Below, one piece after another: positions 1,111 to 64,000 of a stretch of 64,000 nt of DNA. The DNA is taken from contig NGZR01000002.1 of the NCBI GenBank assembly GCA_002197995.1, forward strand, positions 248,001 through 312,000, written 5' to 3'. The position numbers were made by a program, and so were the translations under genes. Position 1 is the stretch's first letter; each line of letters opens with the position of its first letter. This DNA comes from Gaeumannomyces sp. JS-464 (lineage: Eukaryota; Ascomycota; Sordariomycetes; Magnaporthales; Magnaporthaceae). The notes beneath the pieces were generated by a model. The model saw only the letters and a list, made by a program, of their open reading frames with translations, made no database searches and had not been told where the DNA came from.

Positions 1111-1429
1111 GTGACTGGGACAAGGCATGGAGAGTGATTTTGATAACTCTGACTTCCGTGCAAGGAAATCCTGGGCACTAGCATCATTAGGTCATCTCTA
1201 CTGTGGCGATCACAGAGCATTCCTCTCTCTATGAAAAAGGCCGAATAGCAAAGACGAAAGGAACACCTCCGCGGTGTCCAAGAATTTGGGAGGCTCGGAT
1301 ACGAAAATAAAACACGTTGGCAAACATCAGGCACGGGTATTAAGCAGTGAACTCGCAGAGATTTAGCAAACGATGTAGTGGAAAAGTAATTCGTATGGGA
1401 AATGCATAAGTACGCGCTTTATTAATTCA
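1111..1429. other. Convergent intergenic spacer
   Basis: Shared 3' region between two convergent genes. It is somewhat AT-richer than the flanking genes and presumably holds both 3' UTRs. Nothing else is visible. Confidence 0.5.
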
Positions 1430-38253: not shown

Positions 38254-38499
38254 AATAATCTTTTATTTTATTTAAAACCGTTTAATAATACTTATTACCT
38301 TTCCTTTTAAGCTTTGGAAGGTACTACTTAGTTAAATCCTATCCCACATTACCTTTTAATCGTCCAAACCGGCAAATTTTTGTCGGTCGCATTACTACGG
38401 AACACCTTACAAGCTTATAACCGGCTAGTGCCAGGCCGATTGCGCTTAATCCCGTTATTACTAGCATCTTTCGGGAACCCGTGCTAGTCGCCCTTTTTA

Positions 38500-40760: not shown

Positions 40761-41379
40761 AGGTTAAAGTTGCGGCCGTAACCCGGCTACGATAAACATC
40801 CCCCGTTACGAACCGATATTTTAAAAAACTCCCCGAATTAAACTCGGATTGTTAATAACCCCGGATCGCTATAATTAAAACCGGAGCCGGGATGAAAAAA
40901 GGAAACCTATTATAAATATGTGCATTTAACTAAAAAGTCGTCCCGAAATCCCTATCTAAATTCTTTTCGATTTAAAAAGCGATATTGCTGTTATTTTAAA
41001 CAAAATTACGGCATTATTACCTAAGCACGTTATCGAACGGCCCATTTCACGAGTTATAAAAGCCTTTTATAGGGGCTTAATAAGGGTAAAAGGAAAACAA
41101 TTCCTTTTTAATGTCGTACTACGGTATCGGAACTACCGAATAATGGAAACTTTCGAAATTAGCCCTTTTAATTTTAACTTCGACGTTTTTATGCTTTATA
41201 AGTGGATTAAAAAGCATAAGCTTTTAGGATTTTTCGAAAAACCAAAACACGTTCGATTTAAATTAAAAGGATATTGAAAGTGCAATCGGTTAAAAGCCCG
41301 GAAACCCCGAAGTTCGCTGCCCGAAAACATCCTAACTACCGAACTAACCACTATCGCTTTTATTAAACAACGCATTATA

Positions 41380-43900: not shown

Positions 43901-44309
43901 AGCAAGCTATACAACCATTGGATAACCCAAATACATTAGGAAGCTAAAAGCTGCTTCGAAAAGGCACGAAAACGGATAAAGCATTAGGCAAATAAAAAAC
44001 GAAGCCTTTTACCGGTTTTAACCGAGGGATAACTCGTTATGCTTAATGCTCGCCATATTAAAACCCGCCGTCCCGCTAAAAAACTCGACTTTAAAATGCT
44101 CGGCCTTTTCCGAATTTCGAAGGTAATTTCCCCTTCCGCAATCCGCCTAACCCTGCTAAAAACTTAAAAAATCCACGACGCTTTCCACGTGTTATTTATA
44201 AAGCCTTACCGCGCTAGCATTTAAGCACGGCCTAACCCTAACCAGGTTTTCGAAAAGCTCCCCCGATAAAAGGAAAATATACCGTTAAAAGGGTGGAAAA
44301 CTCCATGGT

Positions 44310-44460
44310 TAATCCCTAAAGAAAAGTGTTATACCGCGTAAAGTGGGAAGGATACCCGAAAAAACGGGATAAAATATGGGAGCCTTAGGAGCACTTCGAC
44401 GGCGAAAAAGCCAAAGCCAAAATCGTGGCCTTCCACCAACGGTATTCCGATAAACCTAGG
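44310..44460 (+). pseudogene. Chromodomain remnant at the end of Pol
   Basis: YRVKWEGYPKK, then IWEP, a stop, and EHFDGEKAKAKIVAFHQRY match the chromodomain that chromoviruses carry after integrase to direct insertion into heterochromatin. One stop interrupts it. The segment is less AT-rich than the rest of Pol. Confidence 0.85.
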
Positions 44461-44588
44461 GACGAGCGCGTACCCCCCGCTAGGATAGCCTTAGCCAAAA
44501 GAATGTCTAGCCAGGAACCCTTAGCACGCAAAAAGCCACGACTGACTTAGGAGGATTTCGGGACGAGCTTTTAGGAGAAGGAGGATTG

Positions 44589-44904
44589 TGTTACACGGAG
44601 GCGCCCAGGTACCTTTGGGAATTACCCCGCCAAGGCCCGAAGGCCCAAGCGCCTGCAGGATCGTAAGCGCCGGAAGCAGTGGAGCCAGTCGTTAGAACAG
44701 GGCTACCAATCGGGCCAACGGCGGTGGCACGAGTGGGCGGACTTATTTGCACGGGCCACAAGGGTCTGGCTATTTAACCCCTGCGTCCTCCATGAATCCC
44801 CTTAGCAGATTCTGGCTCCTTAAGCATCTTTTGAGGCATTAAAAGATTATTAGCTTCCATGAAGTAATACAATCCTTTCAAGCCTGCATTGCACCCTTGT
44901 GACA
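44589..44904 (+). repeat. 3' LTR (nearly unmutated copy)
   Basis: 316 bp, starts TGTTACAC and ends GTGACA. It keeps C or G at 24 of the 25 sites that differ from the 5' LTR, so it is close to the inserted sequence. Confidence 0.95.
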
Positions 44905-44909
44905 GTAAA
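44905..44909. repeat. Target-site duplication GTAAA (right)
   Basis: Exact partner of 37933-37937. Its perfection shows that both ends derive from one insertion event. Confidence 0.9.
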
Positions 44910-45133
44910 TCTCGGTCGAATCATATGGCGCGTTCTTAGGAAATTGTTTGACAACCAGGCTGAAAAGCTGACGGTTGAAGGCAAAGTGAGTTGCCTTTCT
45001 CGGTGTCGAGAAGGAACTGGCCGCGGGAGGGTTGGCGTTAGAATAAAACCTCATAGACATCGTAGCCATATGAAAGCGCTAAAGAGAATTTATTATCGTG
45101 CAAAATGTCTATGTGCAATCATCGCGGGCCTCC

Positions 45134-46089
45134 TCAGGGCCGTGCGGGTCCCTCCTTGACCCAGCAGCCAGTCCAGCCGACCTCCACCAGGATGGGGTCC
45201 TCGTAGTACTCCTTGAAGCGGTCCGTGACGTCGAGCAGGAACTGGGAGCAGTGCTCCGTGTGGCCCCAGCTGGCGGTGATCTCGTCAATGTTGCGGCCCT
45301 CGAACAGCGCGACGTACTGGCGCCGCCACATCTGGACGCAGTGGTTGATGTGGTCTCGCTGCGACGTGTCTGTCGTCGTCGTCGTCGTCCCCGATTTTGT
45401 CAGTCAGCGGATGGGGGCCAGCCAAGGGGGGAGGGGATCGAGAGCACGTCTCGGGGGAGGGGGAAAAAAAAAAAGAGGGGGGACGTGTCGTCCTTACAGT
45501 AGTGGTCCACCTCGCCGAGCGCCTGGGGCCCGCCCTCGATGCGCTGCGTGCGCGCCTCGTCGCGGTACCCGTACCAGGTGCCGTCGTCGGCGTACTCGTC
45601 CACCCACTCGCGCGAGCTGCAGCTGGGCCACACCCAGTGGTTGAGCAGCATGTCGTAGTGGCAGCCTTTGGCCTTGGCCTCGGCCGTCGAGGCCCCGCAG
45701 CCGACAAAGGCGGCGCCCGACGTCGCGTTGCGCGCCGACGCCCCGTGCGGCGGAAGCGCCGCCAGGTCCTCGGCGTGTCCGCCCGCGTGCGAGTGCTTGC
45801 TGCCGCTGCCGGCTGCGTGGCTGGCGGCCGTCGTCGGCGGCGACGATGATGGTGGTGATGGGGGTGGCTTCGCGCACGATCCTCGCGGGCTGTGGGGGAG
45901 GACGAGGAAGATCCAGAGGAGCGAGGTGAGGATGAAGACGAGCGAGTGCGAGACCATAGGCCTCACTGCTCCCCTCCACCTCCTTTTCGTCTCGGCCAAC
46001 TCATAGGTCGCGGCGCTCCTCAGCTCCCCGCATTGCGCTTCGTCGTCGGTATACTTGAGGAATGGCTGCTCGTCGGGTTTGGAGGGCAT
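45134..46089 (-). CDS. Single-pass membrane protein with two HxxHC motifs (UstYa-like layout), two exons
   Basis: Exons 46089-45498 and 45369-45134 join across a 128-nt intron (GTAAGG donor, CAG acceptor), giving 275 residues. One transmembrane helix spans about 46-64 (VSHSLVFILTSLLWIFLVL). The lumenal part has CGASTAEAKAKGCHYDMLLN, then SSREWVDEYADDGTWYGYRD, and two motifs HINHC (204-208) and HTEHC (234-238). A short cytosolic tail, one membrane helix and paired HxxHC motifs are the layout of UstYa/DUF3328 oxidases, though the rest looks like a separate conserved fungal family. The CGxS...GC start and W-rich middle are typical of that family. Function unknown; oxidase activity is inference. 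The gene ends 230 bp from the retrotransposon. Confidence 0.75.
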
Positions 46090-46768
46090 TGTGTTTTCGT
46101 CCCGTGATGACTGTCAATTGGGTATTACGCTGGCTGTAGTTGGGCGTAGAAATTGAGTCGGGGGTTAGTAAGGCGACTGCATGCGGCATGTAGAAAGGAC
46201 GGCGCCGTCAGCCTGGTCTAAATACCCGTCTGCCTGTCTCCCTCTCGCGCTCACTCGGGGCCCCCTTCTTGCCCAATTTCCCTCTTCCGGTTGGGTGTTT
46301 CAAGGGCAGGTCTTCATTGTTCGGGCGATGTCTCGTGTTTCGACGAGGAATGCTAAGGTCGCCGCTAATCCGTGCCCCAGGGGGGCTTCGCCTTGGAATG
46401 AAACATGCGATCCCAAGAAGCCAAAGTCGACGTCGCGCGACGGCGGCGGCAGGGGTTGTGGCCCAGGAATGTTTCACGCCGCAGCCTAATGTGCTTGGCC
46501 AGGTGGACTGTCGCCACAAACGACGCAGCGCGATTGGCAGCTCAGGTCTGGGGGTCGGCACGTCCCATGTCTTTGCACAGCCTTCAATGCCGGCGCCACC
46601 CGCCCGGCGCAGCTCTCTCGGCAGTCTCGGAATGCCACGGAGCGAAAGACAATGGCAGCACGGGCGGGCTTGTTGCGACAGCCTCGGTGTGAAAGTGATC
46701 TGGGGCCCTGCGGCATACGGGAGGGACAAAGCTGGTCGCTCGATTAAACATTCTGAGAGCTCTAGAGA
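46090..46768. other. Intergenic spacer
   Basis: Upstream of the HxxHC membrane protein and downstream of the MBL-like gene. No frame is convincing; nothing else seen. Confidence 0.45.
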
Positions 46769-47641
46769 TTAAATGACAAACCATTTGCGTGCACGACCAA
46801 AGACGGTGTCGCCTCTGGCCACATGCAGCATCGCTGCGACAGAGACGGCGCCCGCTGGGCTCCCCGCTGGGCTCGCCGCCGCCTGCACTAGTGCCGACGC
46901 CGCCGGCTCCTCGGGGCTGAAGCCGTGCGGGAAGTTCAGAATCGCCTCGCGCCGCGGCGCTCCCCCAGCGGCCGCGCTGGTCGACCACGCGACCGCGCTG
47001 CCGAGGCACACCCCCGCGCCGGCCAGGCGGAGCACCGAGAGCCAGCTCGGCAGCGCGTCGGGAAGGGAGCTGTCGAGCCGAGGCCAGCCGTCACCGGCGT
47101 CCAGTCCGTCCGCTGAGTTGACCTCGGGCGCGGCGACTACCGTCTTGAAGTGGCCCCACCCCTTGACAATGGCGTGCGTGTCAGCGCCGCAGGCCACGAC
47201 CGGGATAGATGGGTCAAAGGTCCGCAGCGTAGGCTCGTTGGTGTGGTCTGACAGGTGCAGGGTAAGGGCAATTGCGGCGAGGGGCGAGCTTTCCTGGCCG
47301 TCGTTCGGTGTGGTGGTGTCACCTGCAGCTGACGCCGCGAGGGCGTCGATCTCCCTAGCTATGGCTTCGACGGCCGCGCCGTCCCTCGCAGCAGGCTGGC
47401 AGATCTGGGGGATGCTGAGGAACCAGCCGGCGACCAGAGTCAAGTCGCCGACCGGCCAGGGGTCGACAACGACGTGGAGGTACTGCTTGGCACCAGCGGC
47501 CCGTTCAGCCGGGGGGATGCGGATGGAATAGAGCCACGAGTTGTCGCCGTTGAGGGATGTGATGATCGACTTCGAGGTCGCATCCGGTTCGGTGAAGTGG
47601 GCCTGGAGAGCGGCCCTTCTCTTGTTATTAGACGTGCCCAT
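46769..47641 (-). CDS. Metallo-beta-lactamase-fold-like protein, metal site apparently degenerate
   Basis: Single exon from the ATG at 47641, 290 residues. The order of segments, SIITSLNGDNSWLYSI, then LHVVVDPWPVG, then LSDHTNEPTLRTFDPSIPVV, then VKGWGHFKTVV, is that of a fungal MBL-fold family in which DPWL and SDHxHExTL are landmarks. Here the SDH motif reads SDHTNEPTL, so the second metal-binding histidine is Asn. No HxHxDH motif is present, so hydrolase activity is doubtful. No signal peptide. Family call by recognition; loss of activity is inference. Confidence 0.65.
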   Translation of the reverse strand: MGTSNNKRRAALQAHFTEPDATSKSIITSLNGDNSWLYSIRIPPAERAAGAKQYLHVVVDPWPVGDLTLVAGWFLSIPQICQPAARDGAAVEAIAREIDALAASAAGDTTTPNDGQESSPLAAIALTLHLSDHTNEPTLRTFDPSIPVVACGADTHAIVKGWGHFKTVVAAPEVNSADGLDAGDGWPRLDSSLPDALPSWLSVLRLAGAGVCLGSAVAWSTSAAAGGAPRREAILNFPHGFSPEEPAASALVQAAASPAGSPAGAVSVAAMLHVARGDTVFGRARKWFVI

Positions 47642-48328
47642 GTTGACGTCACCTGCCTTGGGTTGCCTTGGTTGCTTAGGAGAGGTTAGATTGGGATGGG
47701 AGCAGCGGCCGCGTCGACCTTAGCCAGGAGAGTGCGTTTGAGCTTGGGTCGCCGGGAAGGATGACTGTCAACACGGGCAGCAGCCGGTTGAAATAAGGAA
47801 CGGCGGGCACTCTAATGAGCCCTCGTCGTCCGTGCCATGCCACGGGTTTTGGGGACCACTGGGTTGCTGCCGATCTCCCTTCTTGTCATCGAGGCCAAGC
47901 CCCGAAACCAAAGAAAGACCCTAGCCACATCTGGCCCTAGCATGACCGAAGGAGCGGCCTGCGGGGATAGCAAATCCTTTTCAACCAAGAAAGGGTCCGG
48001 ACTAAGCTAACTGGAACGGCCAAGACCGGGCACCTCGGACTCGGTTTTGCGGCCAACTGTGTAGGACAGTGAGTGGCACGGGCGGTGTCGCTTCCGTTCT
48101 TTCGGAACCAAGGGGCAGGATGCCACTTCCAAGCTAGAAGAAATGCATGTTGAATCAGAGCGTGGACAGGGCTCTGGTGAAAGCAAGTGATTGGAAAGCG
48201 ACTGAGCCACAAATAAGAGATGCTATATGGCATTGTCGCATGCTCCGTGCCTGTCTGGAAGCACTTCGCCATGTCTGGGTGTAGGTATTTGATCGTCCAG
48301 CAGATCTATCCAGGAACAGAGAGCAGCT
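47642..48328. other. Intergenic spacer
   Basis: Between two leftward genes. No coding frame or repeat is evident. Confidence 0.45.
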
Positions 48329-49132
48329 TCAGCCCCGCCACCCCTTGCCCGCAATGCCGCCGCCAATATATGGCGGCGGGACCTCGCCGACGCCGCCGAC
48401 CATGCGGTCCTCGCGCTCCTCGACGACCTGGTAGTCGGGCAGGGCGTTGTCCGGGCCGGCCTCGTTCCAGGTGCCCAGGACGTCGTCGGCGTCGTCGGGC
48501 GCCATGCCCAGCTCCTCGCGCAGCTGCGCCAGGCGCGCCGAGTACTCGCGCAGCACGTCCTCGCCCTCGGCCAGCCAGTCCGTCAGCCGGTCGCGGCGCA
48601 CGCGCACGTCCTCGATGGTGCTGTACGACGATGCCGACGGGGACGACGACGACGGGCCCTCCGCTGCTGCGCTGCCGCCGTCGACAACGACGGTGCGTGG
48701 TGGCCGCGGCCCGCCCGTGTATGGCGGCACGTCCGAGGCCGAGTAGGCTGGCAGCAGGTCCGGGTCGGGCGAGGGCGCGGCAGGGGCAGCCGAGGGCGGG
48801 GGCTCGGCGGAGGGCGGGTTGAAGACGAGCTCGTCGGCGGCGGGGACGGCGGCGCCGGCGTGGCCGTAGCGCTGGAGCCAGACGTTGTGCTCGCGCAGCG
48901 AGGCGCGCAGGTGATCGAGCTCCGAGGCGAGCGAGGGGATAAGGCGGCGGAGGTCGTTGTAGGCGGACTGGGCTTCCGCGGTGGACGACGACGGCTCGGT
49001 GGGGGAGGGCGGTCGGGGCTGCTGTGTCGCTGACGGGGCGGCGGAGGGGTCGGGCGAGTCGGAGGAGGGAGGGGGGCCGTGGCTTGTCGGTGGCGCCCCT
49101 GGCTGTTCGTGAGGCTGGTTGCTCTGGGACAT
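48329..49132 (-). CDS. Pro/Ser-rich protein with two helical segments, 267 residues
   Basis: The ATG at 49132 (MSQSNQPHEQPG) is preferred; the frame is open 62 codons further upstream but that part looks like untranslated leader. A disordered Pro/Ser N-terminus (about 1-50) is followed by a helix (AYNDLRRLIPSLASELDHLR) and, after a Pro-rich linker with PAYSASDVPPY, by a second helix (RVRRDRLTDWLAEGEDVLRE and on). The C-terminus has DYQVVEEREDRMVGGVGEVP and a PPPY motif, which could bind WW domains or HECT ligase adaptors (inference). No membrane helix. Not recognised as a named family. Confidence 0.65.
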   Translation of the reverse strand: MSQSNQPHEQPGAPPTSHGPPPSSDSPDPSAAPSATQQPRPPSPTEPSSSTAEAQSAYNDLRRLIPSLASELDHLRASLREHNVWLQRYGHAGAAVPAADELVFNPPSAEPPPSAAPAAPSPDPDLLPAYSASDVPPYTGGPRPPRTVVVDGGSAAAEGPSSSSPSASSYSTIEDVRVRRDRLTDWLAEGEDVLREYSARLAQLREELGMAPDDADDVLGTWNEAGPDNALPDYQVVEEREDRMVGGVGEVPPPYIGGGIAGKGWRG

Positions 49133-49531
49133 GGCGGCGGATGTGTCGACGCGCCTCTGCGCTGTGTTTCTGGTCGCTGGCCGAGTGGGAATTGCTGCGG
49201 AATGTGTGCTGCTGGCGTTTAGAGCCAGAAGGGAGCCTTCGTCTGCACCTTTAGCCGAGCTTGATGGCACAAGGAAGCACCCCACGACGCGTGGGGCTCC
49301 GTGCCCCGCGAACGGCAAAAGTGGGGCAGCCGACGCTAGCTAGATGAGCACGACAGCACCAAGCACGACAGCACATGGGGGGCACCAAAGCTAGGCCGGT
49401 GTCGCGCGGGGTTTCCCGTTTCGGCGGCAGGGCTCACGTCGGTAGGTGCGACGAGTCCATCCATCTTGGCCAGCAGGCGGCTTCATTAACTGCTCTACAT
49501 ACAGGGCTCCTATCAGGCGTGCCCAGGCAGC
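49133..49531. other. Intergenic spacer
   Basis: About 400 bp upstream of the Pro/Ser-rich gene. Nothing distinctive seen. Confidence 0.4.
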
Positions 49532-50647
49532 CTAGGACGCCGCCAGCCCACCAGTAGCCCCCGCACACACCGTCACGTAACTGACGGGACGTGATGCCGT
49601 CACCGTGATGGGCTCGTAGAAAATCGTCGTGAATGTCTGGACCCTCAGCTCGTACACGGCCACCACCTGGCTGGTCGCCACCGTGTTGTCGACCAGCCCG
49701 ATCGTCCTGAACGTGCTGCTGACCGTCTCCACCACCGGTCCCGTGGCCGCCGCATCCTGGCGCTTTTCGCGAGCCTGCGCCTCGCCGCCGACCGCCGCTC
49801 CCGTGGCCCCCGCCGCGCCGCAGTCCGTGGGCGTCACGTACGACGTCGACGGCGCCGGCGTCACCGTCACCACGTACCACACCGCCGTCTCGGACGTGGT
49901 CGGGTTATTGCACACCGTCTCCGTCGTGGTTGACGTCTGGTCCGGCAGCGTGACCGTCACCACGGTCGATGTGGCCGCCTTGATGGTGAGGATGGTGGCG
50001 CTGCCGCCCTCGCTGAAGCGGCTGATGGCCGGCACGTAGGGCTCCGTCGTCGGCATGCGCCCGCCGCCCACCACCGCCTGCGACACGCGCGACGAGACCA
50101 TGCAGACGCTGGTGACGGTGGCGCGCGTGTGCGCCGTGGCCGACGGCAGCGCCGTGTACGTGCTCGTCGACGCGACGTACTGCGACTCGACGAGCGTGTT
50201 GGTGCAGCTGGTCGACCACACCGTCAGCCCGGCCGTTGTGCGCCGGACCGCGACCGTGGCCGAGACGACCGTCTTGGGCGGGCTGAGGCTGTCCGTCACC
50301 GTCACCGTGCTGCGCGTCGTCACGGTGATGGTGCTGGTCGACGTGACGGTGACGACGGGCACCGTGGGCATGGGCCGCCGGTACGAGTAGCTCACGCAGC
50401 CCGACTTGGTTACCGATGACGTCGTGAAGGCGTACTCGACGACGGTGCCCAGTGTGACGTAGCTGGTTATGTCCTGTGGGAAGAACGTCGTCACCGCCGG
50501 CGCTGCGGTCGCTGTGACGAAGGTCCATACGACGCTCGTTTCGGTGCTCGTCTCCTCCCGGCGCTCCATGCCGGCCTGAAGGGGAGTCCCGCTGACCGAG
50601 GCCGCCAGCGCCAGCACGGCTGGGCGACACAGGGAAAGACGGCGCAT
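49532..50647 (-). CDS. Secreted Thr/Val/Ser-rich protein, 371 residues
   Basis: Single exon from the ATG at 50647. The N-terminus (RPAVLALAASVSGTPLQA) is a signal peptide. The mature part is built of Thr/Ser/Val strands such as TVTSTSTITVTTRSTVTVT, expected to be O-glycosylated and beta-rich. Six or so cysteines are spread widely (SGCVSY, TSCTNT, SVCMVS, ETVCNN, TDCGAA, TVCAGA). A dibasic site (EKRQDAAA) suits Kex2 cleavage. No GPI-type tail is evident. It is likely a cell-wall or secreted structural protein; no enzyme domain recognised. TATA-like sequence at 50729 on the same strand. Confidence 0.75.
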   Translation of the reverse strand: MRRLSLCRPAVLALAASVSGTPLQAGMERREETSTETSVVWTFVTATAAPAVTTFFPQDITSYVTLGTVVEYAFTTSSVTKSGCVSYSYRRPMPTVPVVTVTSTSTITVTTRSTVTVTDSLSPPKTVVSATVAVRRTTAGLTVWSTSCTNTLVESQYVASTSTYTALPSATAHTRATVTSVCMVSSRVSQAVVGGGRMPTTEPYVPAISRFSEGGSATILTIKAATSTVVTVTLPDQTSTTTETVCNNPTTSETAVWYVVTVTPAPSTSYVTPTDCGAAGATGAAVGGEAQAREKRQDAAATGPVVETVSSTFRTIGLVDNTVATSQVVAVYELRVQTFTTIFYEPITVTASRPVSYVTVCAGATGGLAAS

Positions 50648-50728
50648 CTCGTCGGGGTTTCTCGGGATGACCCTGACGGCAGTGAAGCGGCTGAGCTGGG
50701 GGATGGGAGGAGCCCTCGGCCGAATCTG

Positions 50729-50736
50729 CTTATATG
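50729..50736 (-). promoter_or_regulatory. TATA-like box of the secreted Thr-rich gene
   Basis: On the minus strand the sequence reads CATATAAG about 85 nt upstream of the ATG at 50647. Confidence 0.5.
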
Positions 50737-53700
50737 TCTAGGTGGGTTTCTAGGTGCCCGGTAGGTAGGTAGTAGCCGGTGAAGTGGTCGTCTATTGTCT
50801 TGCACCTCCACGCCCGAGGTCAGAAAAAGATCACGTCGTCTCCCGGAGCCGTCACCCGATATTTAACACTTTATGCCATTAGAACACTCTGCGGGGTAAT
50901 GGCGTCGCACACCTGCCCACACAAGGGTCGAGTTACATGTCCCATTTCTCCGTGCCGCATTCGATATTATATCCGGCTGCAGCAACACCACCACACCACA
51001 GCCTTCCCCTCTTCTATTTGAGGACACATCCGGGGGCGCTGGCATTGGGCGTGTTGGCCGGCTGCTCGGAAAACCGGGGCAAAGGCGGCGCGTCGGAGAA
51101 GCCGGCCTCCGTGCGCCCCGAATGCTCCCTCCTGCTCGTAGAATTGGCAGTGGTGGTTGAGGGGCTGGCTGAATTAGTCAGCCGATGGTCCCGATCGTTC
51201 CGCCTTCCTTCCAGGTGAGCGGGTGGGTGACATCATTTGGCCAGAAAAGGCGGGGCTGCGAAGGATGGTGGTGCATGGCCGGCTTACATTGGGCACATGG
51301 GGCACACCACAAACCCCACACTGCACGCCAACCCATCCACACCCAGACACCCACCCCATACCACGCAAATCCACATGGACAGACAGGGAAACAGCCAGGT
51401 CAAGCTCGGAGCGCAACCTGCCCTGCGTGCAAACAAGCGGAGGACCCTTCGCCGACGTCCGCATCGCTCAAAAGTCGACGACCGGGGCTGCGTCTCCCGC
51501 ACGAGGCGCTTGGACTTGTCGGACCAACGCTAGCAGTGGAGCCCCCCTGCTTGCCCGCTGGGTTTGGGGAATCGGCTTTTTAGGGGCTGCGATCAGTCGT
51601 GCGATTTCGCGTGGGCCTTAGCGGCCGTCGCCGCCTTAGCTGCTTACCTAAAAGTCGGCAGCGACCGCAGTTTATTTCGACCACACAATTCGTGCGTTTG
51701 GAGATGTGCCCAACGCACGATTTGGAAGCTGCCCATCTGGAGGCTCGCAAGCGGCCCGCGATCAGCTGACATGGGGCTGAGCCCTCCAGGTACCCGTCTT
51801 GCCACGGTTACACCACTGGGACCCCGCCGTTTTGCATTCTGCGGTTGGGATCGGGCGGCCATTTAGAACAGAAAACCAAAGATCCCAACAAACCGCCGCC
51901 CCTGGTCGGATCCAGGCCCTGAACTACGTCATGGCCGTCCAGCCGCTGCGCTATCGGAGACGCGCAGCGCAGCACCCCCCCTTTACGCGTGCTGGGCTGC
52001 CATGGGCCACGACCGCCACCTCATATCCCCTGGCCGGGTTTGATTGCCGGGTGGCGGCGGCTCCCCAGCTGAGCAGTTGCAGCTCTGTTTGCGTACCCCG
52101 GACCCGTTTGCCCTGGCTGGCAAACACTCACCCCATATCCTGTGCAGCTTGGCACAGCCACGGACAGGCCGCAAAATTAGTGCCTCTTCCAGTCTCTCCT
52201 TTTTTTCCAGCCCCGTTCTTCTTCCTCTCTTTGCCGTTAGCTTACTGTTGTTGCTTCTTTTCTGGCCCATCGCTCGCTGTCCGGAACCGGGGCCCTTCGG
52301 ATGGCAGCCGGCCGGTGCGCGGCGAAGGAGAGCTGAAACAGACAATTTCCCAATCACGAAGTTGCGGGTGCCCGCATTATTTGTTTGGCCGCTCAGGCGA
52401 TTTGGGATGGGCGGATGTGTGCTGAGCAAGCGCGGGGCAGGGACCGCGAATGGACAGATAAGATATCACATTGCACACATATGTCCCGAGGATACGGGCT
52501 GGTACCTCCTTGGGCAGCTGGTACTCCCGCTGTTCCATGTATCCCTGGGTGTTGAGAGGTACCTATCGGCAGGCACTTTGCTGTTTGCTTCCAGTTCTTT
52601 TTTTTTCTTTTTTTTTTCTTCCCAAAATATCTCACCGGTTTGGCTGCCTTGCCCTCCCCGCCCAATGGGCGTCCCAGCTGCTGTGTCTCATCACTTTGAG
52701 GTTACACACACTCTCTAAGGGGCCGCCCTGGTCACCTGGTTCAACGCATGGTTGCTCCTTGGCCAACCTGGTGACTCAGCCGGCCAATTTGCACAACCGT
52801 GCATTTATGGGCCGTGGGTTATGCCATAGTTGCATCAACCACGTTGCTACCCAAGTGCGTCTAGACACTTGCGCATACTGGAACGACGCCCGTAAGCCCT
52901 CACTTTTCCTGACCGGTAAAATGTATTTATGCATGTTTCGCCTTTGGGGAAAGGTGAAGTATCAAACCCGGGTGCGCGGCAGCTTCCCACCCTGCTGCTC
53001 ATGTCGCCATGCTGGCTGGTGGCCGTTTGGCTCGCCCCCAACCACTTCCAAACGCCAAGAAGTGGCTTGCAGATTCTTCAATCTGATCACCGACAAACCG
53101 CGGCAGGCAGCTAGCTGTGAGCACGCATGGAAACGAGCTTGCACTTGCGCCACAAATAGGTGCCAGCTGAGCAAACGAGCGGCCCCGGCTGGGATGAAGG
53201 TGACAGTAGGCACGTAAACGAAGGCAAAAAAAAGAAAGAAAAAAAAGGAAAAAAGAGAGCTCAAATAATCTTGCAGAAAATCCCCAGCCTGCCAGCTTCT
53301 TTAGTGCCGGCAAGGTGCCAGTGTTTTAAATAGGAAAAGCCCGTTGAATTTGTTGGAGAAAAATGTTGTTAGTCGGGCAGAAGGGATAGGCAAGCTGGCA
53401 CTCAACGGCACTTAGGGGGGAATGGCCGGTATTTTTTTTTCTTTCCTTTTTCTCTGCCGACGGCGGAGCCAGCGCCAGGCACTCCACGAGACCCAGCGAA
53501 AGTCACATACTGAGAAGAACACCGCGACAGGCTACACAGCGGACCTAACCGATCCTGGCTAGCGCTTCGCCCGACAGGGGATGTGCCGATCGTCGGCGGG
53601 AATTTTTGAAGAGCTGCCGGACCCATCCACTCATCTATGCCTGGGGCCCAGCTCCAGGCCCTGGTTGCTGGCTTGCCGTTCGCCGCCCCCGGGAGATATT

Positions 53701-55181
53701 GCGTGGCAAGCATCGCCATGCAGGACAAGCTGGGCTAGCGCCATGGCAGGAAGCGGGGCTGGCAGGGAGCCTCCAAGACCAAGGTGAGTCTAGACATCCG
53801 AAACTGGCTGACACCAACCGCACAGGCTTGATAATGATATCTCTCTCTTGTTTGGGTTTTTTTTCTGGTCATGGCCAACACATGTCTACACCCCCCTCGC
53901 TCCACTGTAGTTTCGCAATGGTTGCCTTGATTAAGCGAGACTATTTGATCTTATGCTTTTTGAAAGGCGCAGGTCTAGACCGGGCTTTTGAGAATAGACC
54001 CGGCTTTGGGCCGCCGGCATGCACCGTTCCGTGTGCCCGGGCACTCCTATCTCGGGCTGAGGTTTGGCGGTGAGCCGACGGAACTTGAGATGTGATACTT
54101 GCCCGGAAGCGGGGAGCTGGGAGCCGGGAGGCCCTGACGGACAGGGACACCCACCATGCTGATCAGCCTGGCTCATTTGGCCTCGCTCGTTTGGCTACGC
54201 TGCTGGAGACCCTTGTCTTTGGTCTCGCCTAAGCACGCTGGAAGTTCCTCCCGGCCTTCTCTGACGCGTTCTACGGGCCGCTGTTTGCTCATCTGCTGAC
54301 GCTTAGATACGGCAATAGACGCTCGGTGAATGAGGGAGATTGGCTCCCCCTTTGGATCTACCGACAAATCAGGTTGTTTGACCAGCTATTTCTGGGGAGG
54401 GCAACCCCTGGTTGCCATCAGGCCGGGCAACCACGATGTGTCTGGCCAGCACCCAGAGACCGCAGCTAATGCAAGTTGTCGGAGCCGGCTCTTCCATATC
54501 TTCTTCCTTTTTCCCTTCATCCATCAAGAAATGACCAAATGTGACAGCTCGGCGCCAATGGCCTCTCTGCCCGCCGCCACCCTTCACCTGCGCCAATCCC
54601 TGCGAAGCTGAAAGCGAGAACCCACCCAAGCCTATCCTTCTTTTTATCATTCGAAATTTCCGCGTGCTTAGTTCTCAGTCGTGCTTGCCCGGGGAGATCG
54701 TCGCCAGCGCCCCTGGTCGTCCACCACGACCTTCGATTTGTTCTTTTCTCCAATGCGGCGGGGATGGCCAGCGTAGTGTTGGCATTGCTGAGCCGCCATG
54801 CAGCAGCAGGGCCCTCCAATCTGGAAGTGTTCCCTAGGGACGGTCGCTTTCCTGTCATGTCGCATGGTTGGTAGGTTGGTGTCCTCGCCCTTTCCTCGTA
54901 GTTTATCAAGTGTCGCCCGCCGCCTAGGGGTGGCTTTGCATGGTCATATAGCAGAAAAGCTGATAGCCGATAGAATTGGCCTTGTGACTGGTGGGTGGGA
55001 AGGATTCTCATTTTTATTGGCGCAGTAGTGCCTGTCGGACTGCCCGACGCTACCTAGGTGCCTACCTAGGTGTCTACCTGGCGTGCCTAGATCCCAAACT
55101 ATTTGATCGATGGCGGCTTCGCAGTTCTTTGTTGTGGTTTTTGGTAGGGGAGGGAGCCACCAGCGGATTGCACTTTCTCGG

Positions 55182-55189
55182 TATAAAAG
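55182..55189 (+). promoter_or_regulatory. TATA box of the helical protein gene
   Basis: TATAAAAG lies 290 nt before the ATG at 55472, implying a long 5' UTR or an upstream intron. Confidence 0.5.
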
Positions 55190-55471
55190 CCATCTACATC
55201 TGTTCCGGTCCCGGGTGAGTAGGGGAACATCCTCATCTCGCATCAAGACACAAGGCAGCCTTCTCAAACTCTCCACTTGCCTTTTCACTTCCTGGGGCGC
55301 ACTTTTGATCGCTTCAGTGTCCTAACAAGACACCGTCCCTTTGAACTAGAACGCCAGGCAGACTTCACGCGCTCAGCCCCCTACACACTTAGCCGACGCA
55401 CACCCAACTCGCCTCCTCGCTGTTGCAAAACCCACTTTTGGGAATTGCAGGAGCACTCCACGGCAACCATC

Positions 55472-56709
55472 ATGGCCGACGAAATAGGCCTCGCACTCAG
55501 CGCTCTGAAGGGGATCCGTGCAGTTTACGTCTTCTGCGTGAACTTCAGAGACGCCGATGCGGACATTACCGAAACCGTGGAGCAGTACCACGAAGTCGAC
55601 AGACAGCTTCGTGCTGTCCAAAACAGGCGGGCCAGCCTGCGCCGCGCAGGCCATCACGCCGACATATTGGAGGAGGTGATGGCGGTCGAGAAGAGGGCCT
55701 GGCGTGAGTTACACGCGTTTGACAACCAGTTTCTTCGCAAGTTGAGCGCCAGGGACAGCCGTATGCCCCAGCTCCGGAGGCTTTGGAACAAGATTGGTTG
55801 GGCGCGTGACAGCACGATGAAGCTGCGCAGCAATGAGCTGCTGGTAAAGTAAGGCAACCACAGCGTTTAGACTTCCCCTACAAAGGACGCGAGAGCGCGA
55901 AGAATTCGTTGCTTTGACGGTCTTATTTCGCCTGCGTATAATCTGATTAACTTTGCATGCATCATTTTAGACTACGATTTTGCGTCAGCCTCCTGGCACA
56001 GTTGGACACTCACATGAGTGTCGTCCAGACATCCATGCGAGCAACGCGCATGATCCTGATGCACCTCGTGCCGGCACCACGTCCCGAAGACCATGACGAT
56101 GAGCTCCGTGAAGCTCAGGCCATTGCTGGCCACAACATCTCGGATGACACGGACGACTCGCTCGCCGTGGGCCTTCGCACTATCCAGCTGGGTCCTCTGC
56201 CTAGCGGGGTGGGGCGAGAGGTTTCGACGGTCGCAAGGGAGCGACTAGAGGCTTGTCGGATGGGCGAAAATCGGTCTGGGGACAGGACATTTTGTCGAGG
56301 ACGCCATCATCCAGACCTTGGGTTGCTGTTTCGGTTGGGCAAGTCGGGGGAAAGTTGGGCGGCGGAGGGTTTCAGGCGGACATGTGCGACAATAACCGCG
56401 GGTAGCCCGTGTATTTGCCAACCACCCAAGATTGATCACCTTGCATACATTTCATTTGTAACCACTAATAGATGTCGGCTTTCCTTGGTCTACACTGCGC
56501 GCCTGAGCTTGGCTGGACAGCCTTCGCCAACAGTGATTCGAATCTGCTGCGGAAGGAAAGGTCACGGAGGAGAGTCGGCGCGAGAAGAAGGGATAAAATT
56601 CAAGCTAAGCTATCCCGAGAGGACAGAAACGAACAGTATTAAAACCAAAAATGGCAGAGGACCCCACGGTGGAAACGGAAATGCTCCACGACAGGAAACA
56701 CCCTGTTAG
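55472..56709 (+). CDS. Helical protein, possible orphan STAND-type N-terminal domain (two exons)
   Basis: The ATG at 55472 starts MADEIGLALSALKGIRAVYV. An intron at 55849-55970 (GTAAGG donor, TTTTAG acceptor) joins LLVK to LRFCVSLLAQLDTHMSVV. Residues 1-160 look like an all-helical bundle with heptad-like spacing, similar in feel to the N-terminal domains (SesA/HeLo-like class) of fungal NOD-like STAND proteins, but no NACHT or repeat domain follows. The second exon is convincing to about residue 215 (STVARERLEACRMGE); the remaining frame to 56709 looks like 3' UTR and the real stop may follow another intron. The family link is a guess from pattern. Confidence 0.5.
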
Positions 56710-56890
56710 GAAGACGCCGCGGCAGGAAGACACCACGACGAAAACAAGAAACCACAAACAAAGAAAAGGTAGACACCCAGGAAAGGGGACCACACATATG
56801 TCGCCGTACCACGTCGCGACTCCAGAGCCAAACTCGCCCCGGCCCAAAGTCGGGGTCTGCCCCGAGGCCCGCCGACCTCGATGCACCTGA

Positions 56891-58055
56891 CTAGGCAGGG
56901 AGCACGCGCTCAAGGCAGCTGTAGGCCCTGTTGGCCAGGCGCCTGTTGTCGTACCGCATCTCCGCCATCTGGCGCCTGACCGCTTCGTCGTGTTGTCTCA
57001 TCTCAAACTCATTGTCCCAGGGCTCCTGTATGACTTGCCACTTCAAGTCCTCTATCCGGTCATGCCGCAGCCGTTCCGCGCCCGGAATCCGGTTGCGGAT
57101 GCGCGCCCCGAAGCATATCAAGATGAGCTCGTCGTTGTTGGGGGCGTCGGTCTCTGGGCGGCCGCTGGGGGGCCAGAACAGCTCGACCGGCTCGGCCGAG
57201 GAGAAGGCGAGGAATGCGAGCTCGGCAGCAAGGAACGTCAGGCGGCGGAGTCCCTCGTCGCGTACCCTGGGGTACTGGGTTTCGCTCCGGGGGAAGTAGC
57301 CCAGGACCTCCTTGATGAGCTTCTCGGTTGCGAGGACGTTCTTCATGCGCGGATCGTCCTCGGCGAAGTCCTCCTCGACTGGGTCCTGCAGGGTGCTGGC
57401 TTTGGTCGTGAAGTGGCAGGTGAGTGCCCGCCAGACGTGCCGCATCACCCTGGCAAGGTTCTCGGCTCCTTGACCGCCGGGTAAGCCGTTCAACCTGCTG
57501 TTGGCGAGGTAGTTGGGATCCCGGGCCATCATCTTCTGGTACGTCGACAGAATCTCGGGAGGGAGGAGTGTGATGCTCACGTCTCCTCGGGAATCATCCT
57601 CAGGTACAAGATCCGGGCGATAAGATGATGTAGTGCGTTATGCCGGCGGTGGGAGTCTTCATATTGAAGGATAATGTCCCAGTCATGGTGCGGGCCGGCA
57701 GCAGCATCGAAGAGCGAGGTGTCTGGCAAGTCGAGCTTGCAGTAGCTAATATCGTAAGAGGAAAGAAGGTCGTGGATGGCGCACCGGAAACTGGTAAGTC
57801 GATCGTCCAAGCGCGAGGAGAGTGACAGGCGGATTGGGGCATAAATGTAGCCGATTTGGCAGACAACAAGAGCGGCCTCATCGTGGTGGAAGGGGCTTGC
57901 CCTCGCGGCCTCAGGAGGTTTTTGCCGTACAGCCAATCTATGGTGCCCTGGAAGTGGTTGCGGGTTATGGCGAAGACGGCAAAGGTGGCGATGACTGCGG
58001 CGAGGATAGCGCAGCCCAGGCTGATGCCGGCAACGACAGGGCCGGAAAACGACAT
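56891..58055 (-). CDS. N-terminally membrane-anchored protein of unknown function, two homopolymer frameshifts
   Basis: The ATG at 58055 starts MSFSGPVVAG and a transmembrane helix (CAILAAVIATFAVFAIT) within residues 10-35. The frame leaves at the AAAAA run 57919-57923 (one base missing) and continues in another as FHHDEAALVVCQIGYIYAPI, SFRCAIHDLLSSYDISY and HHDWDIILQYEDSHRRHNAL. A second missing base near 57583 leads to ITLLPPEILSTYQKMMARDP and the C-terminal third, which ends RAYSCLERVLPA. Taken together the protein would have about 385 residues with a cytosolic or lumenal helical body. No family was recognised. The second half alone could be mistaken for a separate 229-residue gene, but it begins without an ATG. 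Confidence 0.6.
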
Positions 58056-59016
58056 GCTGAATGAAGAAGGGCAAAAGAGGAGCAAAATGCCTTGTGCAAA
58101 GAGGATGGGGGTCAAGGCGAAGGCTTGCGGGAAGAGTTGGGACGGGCCAGCAGCTTTTCCGGTAGTATTAGGGAAGACGGAAGAGAGAGCTGGAGGCCAG
58201 AAGAGTCAGAGAGGCGGGGGCCTGGGCTGGTATTGGTAAAGGAAAGGAATTTGGAGCAAACAAACGAAGCTCCGAGCTGGAATGCAAATTGGCAGGGAGT
58301 GACGGCGAGGTGTGTGTTCGAGCTAATTAGTGCTGAACGCTGCCGGATCGGGACTAGTGGCTGCGAATTTTGTTTTTCTTGGATTTGCCTGCCAGCCCAG
58401 ACTCGTCAAGTAGGATATGTGACAGTTCTGTCGGCCCCCACGGCTTGGTGCGGGAGTATCAACGACCGCGCAGGCCAGAGCCGTAAAATGACGCGGCGCA
58501 CACTGCCACCCCCCACCATCCCTGCGCCTTCTGCTCGGTCGTCCTCTTTTTCGGTCATCCTTGCTTTTGCCTGTTCGCACTATTGCCTGGGAACCAAACT
58601 GACCAAGGGCTGGATCCTGATGGCGGTGGCCAGGCGCACCTTTGCTCCCTAGGATCCAGGGAAGGCCCCTTTGCTCTCTTGGACCCAAAGTCTCTTCGCT
58701 CGCTTGGATCCAGAGGTGCCCGCCATTCGAGTTGAGCTCCCAGCAGGCAACAGTTCTTCTGATTTTCGTATCTTCTCCTCGTCCCTTCTCGCCTATATAT
58801 ATCTGCCTACGCATCATCCTCTGCCTTTCTCTCATCCTCCTACTCTCCTTCCTTCGTGCCACTCCCGTCAGCCCAAGCAGATATTTCCACTTCTTTCCGG
58901 CATCGTTCCCTCCTTCGCAAGCATTGTTGGTCTGTCTGACGCCTTCAAGCTTTGGTCTTCCATCCATCCATACCATCGCCACTTTTACAACATAAATCAC
59001 TCCCACCCACGCCAAG
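58056..59016. other. Divergent intergenic region upstream of the Hsp70-like gene
   Basis: Contains three imperfect copies of a GGATCC(A)-centred phrase near 58650-58715, a TATA box at 58794 and a strongly CT-rich leader. No coding frame is convincing. Confidence 0.5.
58794..58802 (+). promoter_or_regulatory. TATA box of the Hsp70-like gene
   Basis: TATATATAT lies 215 nt before the ATG at 59017 and is followed by a CT-rich stretch and a CA-rich leader. Confidence 0.6.
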
Positions 59017-59309
59017 ATGTCTCCGTCTACATCCCAAACACCCGCCGGCAAGCCCGATGCTATCGTCGGCGTAGATATCGGTAATAACGGATGTAAGCAC
59101 ACCATCCCTCACACCCACAACCAGCACGTTTTTCGTCCCTTCCGCCGTCAAAACTGCTATCTAACCCTTAGGCTAACCTGTTGCCTATGGGCGGATTCGA
59201 AATATCTAGTCGCGAAAGTCGCCCTGTCCTTCTTGACCTCTCAGGAGGATGCCTACACGGAGCCGCGGCACGTCGCGTGGAACGGGTGCTGCCCAGCTGA
59301 GGCGCTCCC

Positions 59310-60006
59310 GGCGGTGGTGGCCTATACAGGCCACAAAACATGGGTCGGGCAGATCCCGGAACTGGTAGAGGAGGACCAGTCCGCCGACGTTTATCGGTGC
59401 TTTAAGTTCGCCGCCCTGGAGAAGGACCGGACGAAGACGACGGTCGAGTTTGTCAGGGGCAATTCCACGAAAAATGCCGCGGGCATTTTTAAAGTGTTCC
59501 TAAAAAGGGTTTTTAAAAAAGTTAAAAACTTTTACAATTATAATAAAGCTAATTTTTTGCATTACGTTATTTGCTTTTTTAAAAAGCGGTTATTATTAAT
59601 ATTAAATTCGGCGTTTTTAATAATGTAAAAAAAAACGGGCGTAAACTTTTGGTCGAAATTACGCGTATAACGGCTAGCATATAACCGTATAGCAATAATT
59701 GCGATAAATTTTACATTATAAAAAAAATTACTTTTACCGAAGCTAAAACTATGGGATTATATATTATTAACGGCTTAAAACAACTTAACCAGGTAAATTC
59801 GCCTGCTTTTTATCGCTCCACCGTTATATTACAATAACGGGCAAAAAGCTAACCCAAATAAAACTTATATAATTTACAAATTGGAAAAACCTGCCTTATT
59901 ATTAATATCGGTTTAAAAACATTTATAAGCGTTTACAGGTTCCTTTTAAAGCAATGCTTCGTAATTGCAGGCTAACATTCCTCCTAACTTAAAACCTAGC
60001 TATGCT
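59310..60006 (+). repeat. 697-bp tandem duplication, first copy
   Basis: Starts with GGCGGTGGTGG in an exon and runs to just before the RIP-altered copy of the same 11 bp at 60007. Its left 150 bp are intact coding sequence; the right part is AT-rich. Confidence 0.9.
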
Positions 60007-60480
60007 AACGGTAGTAGCTTATACAAGCCACAAAACATGGGTTGGGCAAATCCCGGAACTGGTAAAGGAAAACCAATCCGCTAACGTTTATTAGTGCTTT
60101 AAATTCGCCGTTTTAAAAAAGAACCGGACGAAAACGACGGTCGAGTTTATTAAAGGCAATTTTACGAAAAATGCCGCGGGCATTTTTAAAATGTTTTTAA
60201 AAAGGGTTTTTAAAAAAGTTAAAAACTTTTACAATTATAATAAAGCTAATATTTTTGCATTACGCTATTTGCCTTTTTAAAAAGCGGCCGTTATCGATAT
60301 CGAACTTAGCGTTTCCAGTAATATAAAAAAAACGGGCGTAAATTGTTAATCGAAATTGCGCGTATAGCGGTTAGCATATAACCGTATAGCAGTAATTGCG
60401 ATAAACCCCATATTATAAAAAAGATTACTTTTACCGAAGCCGAAGCTGTGGGATTATATATTATTAACGGCCTAAAGCAA
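59460..60480. other. RIP-mutated AT-rich block centred on the duplication junction
   Basis: The sequence changes from GC-rich coding to AT-rich, TTAA-dense DNA and back. Differences between the two 697-bp copies are transitions of C to T or G to A; mutations lie in either copy. The flanks outside are unaltered. Confidence 0.85.
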
Positions 60481-60703
60481 CTAAACCAGGTAGGCTCGCT
60501 TGCCTTTTGTCGCTCCACCGCCACATTACAGTAACGGGCAGAAGGCTAACCCAAGTAAAACTTGTGTGATTTACAGGTTGGAAAGACCTGCCTTGTTGTC
60601 GACATCGGTTTAGGAACATCTGTAAGCGCTCACAGGTCCCCCTTAAAGCAGTGCTTCGTAACTGCAGGCTAACATTCCTCCCAACCCAGGACCTGGCCAT
60701 GCT
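60007..60703 (+). repeat. 697-bp tandem duplication, second copy
   Basis: Starts with the mutated junction AACGGTAGTAG and ends before the third GGCGGTGGTGG at 60704. The left part is AT-rich; the right 200 bp are nearly intact. The distance from copy to copy is 697 bp at both ends, so no indels separate the copies. Confidence 0.9.
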
Positions 60704-61760
60704 GGCGGTGGTGGACGAGAGCAAAGGCAAGGGCAAGGTTGGAATCAAGGCCGACTTTCTAAATCCGGTGTCCAGTGGGATGGCAGGGGGTTCCCATCTT
60801 GACAAGGCCTTTACCAATATGCTGGTAAACTACCTGACTCCACTTGCCCTCCCTTGGCTCGAGGACTGTTCTCCCAGCGGCTGCGCCCAGTCAATTTGCC
60901 GAAGTGCCGCCTACTTCCGCGCAAAAGCCAATTTCTCCAGCACCACGACATGGGAGGAGTATCTCAGGATTCCTCCCCGGGATTGAAGCCCGGTGCATCC
61001 ATCAACGCCGCCAGACGGAGCGGCCTGAAGATAGTCGACAACAAACTGCATGCGGACAGGTACGTATGCGACAATCGATCCCCTCGCCTAGTTGCTCCCC
61101 TAGCTAGGCAATCACTTGGCACGCCGGCTAATATGACTCTCTCCAGCACCGTGTTCAAGCGGCTGTTCGAAGAACAGCTCGTCGGCGGCAGCCAGGACAA
61201 ATACGTGGAAGACAGCATCCTGGCCCAGGCCATAACGATGCGTGACAACTTGGGTTCACAACCCATCCAAGTCGGACGTTTGGAAGGCCCTGATGTCCCA
61301 GCAGGGTGACTGCACCGACGCCATCGACTTTGTCGTCTTCGCCGGGGGCATGGGGGGCTCAAAGTACATCCAGCAACGCGTCGAGGAGGAGCTGAAGCTA
61401 GAGGACAAGCAGGCGCCCAAAACCACGGGGGCGTCCCGCGATGCGGGCTTGGGCGAGGTGACCCGGCGCACTGAGTTCATCTCCTACCCGAAGCCGCAGC
61501 TCTGTGTAGCATACGGCTTGGCGTTGTCGCGGATACTAGAGGTCATGCCTGGCCGCGGCCGCGGTGTCCAGGGGTCATCTCTCGCTCTAAGCACTAGCGG
61601 GTGCTTGATTCTCGCCCACTCGTGGGCTCTGCTTGGCATGGATTCCCTTTGTTCTTTGGCTTCGTGTGTCCTCTCCTGTCCGGTATCGCGCTGTTCCGCT
61701 CTGTCTGTACGTACCTGGGTAGTCGGTTCATTCTTTGTCCTGCCTCCTCTGGACAGTTGA

Positions 61761-62426
61761 TAGAGATCTGCCAATCCTTTCCGCACTGTTTCCCTTGGCG
61801 CAAATACTGCTGCTCGTCTGCCCGTCCCGCTCTCCCCCAGATTCGGGCTCTCCTGGTCGCTTTCGCGGTGCTTGGCGGCTCGGTCGGGTGCGGTCCTCCT
61901 GTCGCTCGCTGGATGCAAGCCAAGTCCGAGCCTCAGTCCGAGCATGGGCGAACGCCATGCCCCCGTAGCCTATCCATTCTGCCGACCGCACCATGATTTG
62001 CTCCTGCTCGCGAGCTAGCCGCGTTCCGTCGGACAAATGGTGACGAGCGCTGACCTGCATGCGGGTGATACATGCCTTGTAGCCCGCTTCCCGGTGCAAA
62101 GGCCCCTCTGGTTGGCTTGATACAGGGAGCAGCCAAGTCCCCGGCTCGGGAATAATGGACATTTAAAGTGTTCGGAGCTTGGCGCTGCTCGCCAGCATTG
62201 CTGCGGCTTTGCTGTCAGTGTGGTGACGCCTGCTATCCCCGTAAAACGTAGCCATCCTCCGAGCTGGCTCGGAGCCTAGCCACGTCACGTCCCTCGTTAA
62301 ATCGTAGTTGCCAGGTTTTTAATAAGTCCCAGAAGCCCCGGTGTGCCGGCTGCTGGTATCCGAACCCTGTTCAGCATAAATCTCTGCGAAAAGGAACGAA
62401 AAAAAAAAAAAAAAAAAAAAACAAGG
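61761..62426. other. Intergenic spacer with poly-A tract
   Basis: Between the Hsp70-like and GMC genes. A run of 23 A (62399-62421) ends six bases before the GMC start codon. No coding frame is convincing. Confidence 0.5.
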
Positions 62427-64000
62427 ATGCCGGGCCTCTCCGTACTCGGCGTTGCCGCACTCGCACTCGTGGTGCGCGCCCAAACTTTACCGCAGGGCAG
62501 GGTCAAGCGGGACGCCGCAGAGCTGCGCGGGACATACGACTTTGTCGTCCTTGGCGGAGGGACCGCGGGCCTGACGGTCGCCGACAGGCTCACAGAGGCC
62601 TTCCCCGACCGCAAGTGCTCCTTCCGGGCCGCCCCGCGCAGGACGGAATGCTGACTGGCCGCCGCAGGGACCGTCTTGGTCGTCGAGCTTGGAGATCTCG
62701 TCTACGCGGCCGGGGTCAACGAGCCGCCCGGGTACCCTCCATCGGTTCCTGGCTGGAGGGTCACGTCGGCCCGAACCCAGCGCTCAACGGGCGCGCGGCG
62801 GGGTCACTATCGGAAAGGTGGGCGGCCCTGCCAGCTTGCCATCCATGTCCGCCCGCTGGCTGACAAGCCCCTTGCGCCCCACAGGCTGTCGGCGGCGGCA
62901 CGACCATCAACGGCCAATTCTTCGATCGAGGGTCCGCGTCCGACTACGACGCCTGGGCGGCGCTCGTGTCGCCCGAGTTTGACGAATCCGAGGACAAATG
63001 GGATTGGGAGGGACTGCTTCCGTATTTTAAAAAGGCATGCCCGTCCAACGAATGACACACTCGTCAGGGTGGTCTCTTTCCAAGGACAGGAGGATGACTG
63101 CTGACGAGACGCGTCCCGGCCAGAGTGTCACTTTCACAGAGCAACCAAGGAGAGCGCCGAGAAATACGGCTACACGTGGAACACAGATGCTGCGTATGGC
63201 GGTAACACGCCCATCCACGCCAGCTTTCCGCCGTTCCAGTGGCCAATGCAGGGTATGATCACCACCTGGCTGCCTGTCACTTTTTTCTTCCTCTTTTTTT
63301 TTTTACTAACTACCGAGCCGTCAACACCACCACTAGCCCTGACGTGGAAGGCATGGATCGACACAGGCCTCGAGGCGAACGGGGAGTGCGCCGCAGGCAG
63401 CAAGGTGGGCATGTGCTGGGTCCCATCGTCGCAACACCCGCACACGGCGAGGCGTTCTCACGCGGGGACGGGCCACTTCCTCGACGTGACCGACCGCCGG
63501 CCCAACTACGACCTCCTCGTCCGCCACCGGGCCATCCGGGTGCGGTACGCCAGGGGCGCCGGGGACGGGAGGGCGGTGCTCGACGGCGGGCCGCCCAAGG
63601 TCGAGATCAGGGCCGAGGGGAGCAACGCCACGACGTGGGTCACGGCGACGTAGGAGGTCATCGTCGCGGCCGGGGCGCTCAACACGCCCCTCATCCTGCA
63701 GCGGAGCGGCATTGGCCCCAGGGGCGTCCTCGACAAGGCAGGCGTGGAGCAGATTTTTGACCTCCCAGCGGGGGACAGGTGAGACCTGCCGCGGGCTTGT
63801 GAGGACGGACCGAGGCGCCGAGCAATGCTGAATACGATGAACGGCGCAGAACTTCCACGACCATGGCGGCCTAGCATACAAGGCCACGTGTAGGGACCAC
63901 CCTTCCCTTCCCCTACCTCTTTTGTCCCCTGCCTTTTCCATCTTTTAACCCTTCCCATCCCCACCCCAATCTTCCGGTTTCTTGCAAAGGGACGGCAAGC
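62427..64000 (+). pseudogene. GMC oxidoreductase (5' part), frameshifts and one in-frame stop, runs off the window
   Basis: The ATG at 62427 gives a signal peptide (MPGLSVLGVAALALVVRA) and the FAD motif YDFVVLGGGTAGLTVADRL. Exons follow at 62668-62817 (TVLVVELGDLVYAAGV), 62885-63034 (VGGGTTINGQFFDRGSASDY), 63124-63252, 63337-63778 (SSQHPHTARRSHAG; AGALNTPLILQRSGIGPRG) and 63850 on (NFHDHGG). The motifs and the secretion signal fit a secreted GMC oxidase such as an aryl-alcohol or glucose oxidase relative, with FAD. Missing bases are implied at the CCC 62770, the GGGG 62800 and the AA 63143. The intron after 63034 would use a GC donor. A TAG at 63651 interrupts VTAT and EVIVAAGAL in the same frame and cannot be explained by a homopolymer. 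The gene continues past 64000. Confidence 0.8.

Follow-up and report, generated by a model that had tools for sequence, protein, structure and literature searches.

The window analysed here is a stretch of 64,000 nucleotides corresponding to C12:248001-312000, in an assembly of 53.0 Mb and 34 contigs. It contains an LTR-type element and, further along, a predicted gene on the forward strand, part of which is present as two head-to-tail copies of 697 bp, with similarity extending a further 11 bp beyond the second copy, to 60714 (Table 1). The first-pass annotation had described this gene as Hsp70-like, a description that is upheld by matches to one paralogue but not by Pfam, where the cut-off for HSP70 (PF00012) was not reached. 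A genome search identified the paralogue, L023 (C1:12094773), at E 8e-6; the proteins are 41% identical across part of the C-terminal piece. Against the DLGGGTSDLSML stretch of L023, the exon pair VGKTCLVVDIGLGTS / DLAMLAVVDES... scored 112, with 56 as the best of 5000 shuffles; the C-terminal DFVVFAGGMGGSKY piece scored 107 against L023 (best of 5000 shuffles 54). The match of exon 2 was weak, its score of 41 being reached by 42 of 5000 shuffles, and the phosphate-1 motif in predicted exon 1 was recognized by eye only; this exon gave no significant match to L023, whose own exon 1 entered the comparison in a wrong frame. In Pfam searches with four window pieces, HSP70 was absent from the matches with E values of 1 or less, and querying the genome with PF00012 (E values up to 10) brought up neither the duplicated locus nor L023; the match of L023 itself to this profile was weak (E 0.11, profile positions 185-217). 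The gene is called Hsp70-like here, and not Hsp70, its probable identity coming from similarity to a single paralogue in the same genome.

At the thresholds used, one exon of L023 and one exon of the duplicated gene gave no protein relatives (72 and 29 candidates). A solved-structure match of a gene piece to ribosomal protein uS7 (E 0.0063) falls in the predicted first intron and was taken as chance, as were the solved-structure matches of a C-terminal piece, the best of which had an E value of 0.89. Outside the duplication, positions 60984-61235 are open in a frame other than the one shared by the tested pieces on either side, which may reflect introns that escaped prediction, subsequent decay or errors in the sequence. 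The next gene downstream (62425-62654) starts with a signal-like stretch and YDFVVLGGGTAGLTVADRL, a combination that we take to be typical of GMC oxidoreductases.

Table 1. Features of the duplicated locus and the LTR-type element (window coordinates)
Feature	Position	Strand	Basis or remark
LTR-type element	37938-44912		324-bp terminal pair at 37938 and 44589; AT-rich, CpG-sparing
Predicted exon 1 (MSPSTSQTPAGKPDAIVGVDIGNNG...), phosphate-1-like	59017..59092	+	reading of sequence; splice sites inferred
Predicted intron after exon 1	59093-59209	+	splice sites inferred
Exon 2, crosses left breakpoint	59210..59493	+	open frame, no visible mutation; weak match to paralogue L023
Left breakpoint word GGCGGTGGTGG	59310..59320	+	word search; codon phase 2
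Copy 1 of duplication	59310..60006	+	copy alignment; 68 copy-specific A/T sites, 59567-60001
Mutated block	59500..60500	.	G+C 0.32 (59494-60500); spans junction; sharp left edge by composition
Mutated junction word AACGGTAGTAG	60007..60017	+	word search
Copy 2 of duplication	60007..60703	+	copy alignment; 43 copy-specific A/T sites, 60007-60500
In-frame TAG, copy 2	60092..60094	+	at two transition sites
Predicted intron A	60490..60576	+	copy comparison
Phosphate-2 exon VGKTCLVVDIGLGTS	60577..60621	+	match to L023 DLGGGTSDLSML stretch
Predicted intron B	60622..60689	+	copy comparison
Exon DLAMLAVVDESKGKG..., crosses right breakpoint	60690..60983	+	scored with phosphate-2 exon against L023; no visible mutation
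Right breakpoint word GGCGGTGGTGG	60704..60714	+	word search; codon phase 2
C-terminal piece, adenosine-like motif DFVVFAGGMGGSKY	61236..61601	+	score against L023; genome search

On the forward strand of the window the intact 11-bp word GGCGGTGGTGG occurs only at the two outer ends of the duplicated region, and its mutated form AACGGTAGTAG only at the junction between the copies. The spacings from word to word are 697 and 697 bp, confirming the first-pass claim of three such words exactly 697 bp apart. Words placed at both ends and at the junction are the trace expected when duplication takes place between two occurrences of a short word, and the further claim that the two matches lay in different exons is supported by the paralogue, which marks exons on both sides. 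Upstream of the word, the shared stretch is widened by a match of 16 in 20 positions (family D10). Among offsets of 150-5999 in the window, 697 was the sole one with an ungapped 200-bp stretch matching at 75% or more, indicating that the repeat match is not due to chance. A search of the 53-Mb assembly with 1405 bp of the locus returned a single genomic place and no further copy.

Alignment of copy 1 with copy 2 gave 698 columns, of which 583 are identical; the substitutions comprise 111 transitions and 2 transversions, and each copy has a single 1-bp gap. The A/T state was found in copy 1 at 68 sites (35 A for G and 33 T for C) and in copy 2 at 43 sites (26 A for G and 17 T for C). The C-to-T and G-to-A mutation of the duplicated DNA reported in the first pass is thus borne out, with both types present in both copies and the differences dominated by C:G to T:A transitions (111 of 113 substitutions). 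These copy-versus-copy counts miss sites mutated in both copies, and the core's low G+C (0.32) suggests that such doubly mutated sites are numerous. Given that just 2 transversions and two 1-bp gaps accompany the transitions, ordinary mutation since the duplication has been small. As 111 transition sites distinguish the copies, RIP would have come later than the duplication, and the reverse order was rejected on the same ground. The longest identical run between the copies is 53 bp (59501-59553 and 60198-60250) and lies inside the heavily AT-rich block; it may stem from identical sites having been mutated twice or from post-RIP conversion of one copy by the other.

The visible mutations span 59567-60500 and so extend 440 bp to the left and 494 bp to the right of the junction. 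Counted by halves (left, right), copy 1 carries 13 and 55 mutated sites and copy 2 carries 40 and 3 (Fisher p 2.6e-15), so that 95 of the 111 copy-specific mutations lie in the junction-proximal half. Within 500 bp of the junction, 68 of 211 known cells were mutated in copy 1 and 43 of 220 in copy 2; beyond that distance the counts were 0/109 and 0/100, and for copy-specific sites the earlier statement that the outer 150-220 bp are unmutated is correct. The accompanying statement that mutation is strongest around the junction is not borne out, the profile being that of a block with its G+C minimum (0.19) in bin 59500-59599, compared with 0.43 in bin 60000-60099. This minimum, together with the better fit of a step than of a slope in copy 1 (log-likelihood gains of 37.7 and 22.5), led us to drop the idea of a junction-centred peak. 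In copy 2 step and slope performed equally (22.8 and 23.2). At the left edge no known cell of copy 1 was mutated before 59567 (0/121) and 68 of 199 were mutated from there on, while G+C drops from 0.60 to 0.20 over about 60-80 bp near 59500, placing the compositional edge nearer 59500 than 59567. The right edge is soft, with 3 of 165 cells mutated from 60351 on, and the flanks of the duplication have normal base composition, with no leakage of RIP seen. Since the copies would initially have had the same sequence, each is a control for the other, and the placement of mutations would be set by position rather than by sequence.

The mutations have damaged both copies. In copy 1, intron A retains its donor GT and its acceptor has changed from CAG to CAA, whilst in intron B the donor has changed from GT to AT and the acceptor from AG to AA; three of the four splice signals present in copy 2 are therefore missing. 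Together with the stop codon in copy 2, this loss indicates that the gene is broken. The two breakpoint words share codon phase 2, for which reason the joint would be in frame, and the duplicated gene may once have encoded a protein with an internal repeat, in frame after splicing. Once intron A (87) and intron B (68) are subtracted from 697, 542 remains, which is not a multiple of 3, so an in-frame product would require the 697-bp unit to contain an indel or one further intron, and neither was found.

RIP acts between fertilisation and meiosis, classically prefers CpA and, for new repeats, needs the methyltransferase homologue RID. In the core of the duplication the observed/expected ratios were 2.06 for CpG, 0.56 for CpA and 0.52 for TpG, against 0.96, 1.11 and 1.09 in ordinary window DNA (45001-59000). 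The sparing of CpG led us to reject decay of methylated CpG as the cause. In the LTR element the corresponding values were 1.85, 0.44 and 0.42, and the 324 aligned columns of its terminal pair show 26 transitions against 2 transversions. This element belongs to a dispersed family: a 3-kb piece of it gave at least 57 genome matches, itself included (40 of 143 candidates scored), and at least 10 others span nearly the whole piece at 82-86%. From the likeness in composition, the same mutator appears to have acted on the gene and on the repeat family. Departing from the textbook pattern, one RIP index was low in the unmutated outer end of copy 1 as well. Two DNA-methylase loci are present in the genome. 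One, labelled DIM-2-like, matches 9bap_A (E 8.5e-141), listed as DNA (cytosine-5-)-methyltransferase, which we take to be DIM-2. The other, on C31, has a DNA_methylase match and relatives in Sordariomycetes (among the best 120 of 174, the top named one matches at 42% across 71% of the query and an unnamed protein reaches 87%) and contains an EQT motif, presumably a mark of RID; on these features it is labelled RID-like. A minimum repeat length for RIP of about 400 bp is given in a passage of PMC2257937, and at 697 bp the duplication lies above this threshold. RIP is well supported as the agent.

An account that we hold with considerable confidence is that a word-bounded duplication within the gene was followed by RIP of both copies, which broke the gene. 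A 697-bp tandem duplication would have arisen inside the Hsp70-like gene between two 11-bp words that belong to separate exons and share a codon phase. During a subsequent sexual cycle, or several, presumably before meiosis, the RIP machinery (RID-like, perhaps with DIM-2) would have detected the adjacent identical segments and converted C:G to T:A over a block of about 1 kb made up of the inner parts of both copies, sparing about 190-200 bp at each outer end as well as the flanks. A stop codon would thereby have been placed in copy 2 and splice signals removed from copy 1, leaving the gene broken. Several observations count against this account. Visible mutations were more frequent at CpT (42/148) than at CpA (28/134), with CpC at 23/184 and CpG at 17/172, and RIP prefers CpA. 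The clean flanks are another, leakage of RIP into flanking DNA being reported in part of PMC7296669. The 542-bp remainder tells against the in-frame product, and the failure of Pfam to recognise the gene also counts on this side.

It is very improbable that RIP was triggered by an unlinked or lost second copy, to which the tandem duplication was incidental. RIP is able to act on unlinked repeats and such a copy may have been lost, but the mutations are confined to the duplication and lie in mirror image about its junction; moreover, no further copy is found in the genome, and the nearest paralogue, L023, reaches its 41% protein identity over only part of the C-terminal piece. An assembly error, in which a mixed or heterokaryotic culture supplied two alleles that were then placed head to tail, is scarcely credible. 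The joint sits precisely on a short word common to both ends, and this word is itself RIP-mutated; RIP is not expected in a single-copy gene, and the 111 differing sites would help an assembler to keep the copies separate.

For the clean outer ends, later exchange and a positional property of RIP were both considered. RIP might have run from end to end in both copies, the outer ends being restored afterwards through an outcross, in which an allele lacking both the duplication and the mutations took part in crossover or conversion. This fits the sharp left edge, at which both the count of mutated cells and G+C change abruptly and a step outperforms a slope, but it requires one exchange on each side, both within the duplication and both retaining it, and the right edge is soft, with step and slope equal. 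We judge restoration unlikely; if it did take place, the duplication and its mutation by RIP would stand and the clean ends would be uninformative on RIP. Alternatively, the extent of the block, which begins about 190 bp in from the outer end of copy 1, stops about 200 bp short of that of copy 2 and takes in both inner ends, may be set by position in the array rather than by sequence. On this proposal, which we put forward tentatively, mutation would spread across whatever lies between the paired segments, and the outermost 200 bp would have a role in recognition only. The sharp left edge leans towards exchange, the similar extents on the two sides towards position. Four contrast pairs from the AT-rich part of the same contig do not demonstrate clean outer ends as a general rule. 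A tandem 1328-bp pair (C12, 68988/70316; 186 transitions, 34 transversions) had halves of 9 and 32 in copy 1 and 75 and 70 in copy 2 (p 0.0007), a skew in the same sense as that of the 697-bp pair, in copy 1 only. The three other pairs had no skew (p 0.44, 0.56 and 1.0). All four are poor controls, lying amid many RIPed repeats and carrying 23-124 transversions.

Duplication followed by mutation, as favoured here, has parallels in other fungi. Watters et al. 1999 are said to have worked with laboratory tandem duplications in Neurospora. The natural Neurospora tandem duplication of 1989 is reportedly the zeta-eta region, about 0.8 kb long and holding 5S rRNA sequence, in which it would differ from the present case, located inside a protein gene. 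Its publication that year as a natural RIPed tandem duplication is evident from a title in the reference list of PMC2257937, and, so far as a title tells, the two are alike in being natural short tandem duplications decayed by transitions. The first-pass view of the locus as a rare natural record accordingly holds for the preservation of both boundaries and the word and is weakened as to rarity. Laboratory tandem or repeat-linker-repeat constructs of Neurospora, as described in parts of the sources cited here, are similar in that adjacent or close direct repeats undergo RIP, but they are artificial and show immediate products, whereas the present case is natural and linker-free. According to sections of Gladyshev and Kleckner 2016 (PMC4858203), RIP can be triggered by about 155 bp of perfect homology, and in one construct RIP passed over a distal stretch of about 130 bp; that escape involved weak interspersed homology, whereas homology in the present duplication was presumably complete. 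A portion of PMC11969663 reports that the linker between close repeats is mutated and that this is nearly abolished without DIM-2. For Cladosporium fulvum, one of the ascomycetes whose genomes hold duplicated genes and transposons mutated by RIP, extracts of PMC10823647 describe C:G to T:A decay of duplicated genes, with tandem duplications said to be more prone; the duplications described there comprise whole genes or large segments (12.9 kb), unlike the present one, which covers part of one gene. A literature search of titles and abstract openings recognised no natural RIPed duplication inside one protein gene. Both the process and its natural setting are already known, and the locus is a well-preserved further example.

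RIP has mostly been studied on transposons and laboratory constructs, and a natural case within a gene preserves the boundaries, the joining word and two clean ends. Where a RIP domain ends thereby becomes a question that a laboratory cross could answer. On a wider reading, offered just as tentatively as the positional proposal, RIP would curb the lengthening of proteins through in-frame internal duplications of more than a few hundred bases as well as gene duplication. The locus also suggests that RIP-competent fungi should be without recent long in-frame internal duplications, which could be counted across genomes.

A self-comparison survey of 264 kb (200 kb of C12 plus the window) yielded 207 pairs of at least 120 bp at offsets of 50-12000. 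The 697-bp pair was the only surveyed pair of at least 300 bp, with an offset below 2 kb, outside 1-kb bins with G+C below 0.45. Beyond the window, C12:48001-177000 (L025-L037) is mostly AT-rich and repeat-filled toward the contig end and holds several tandem RIP-like pairs.
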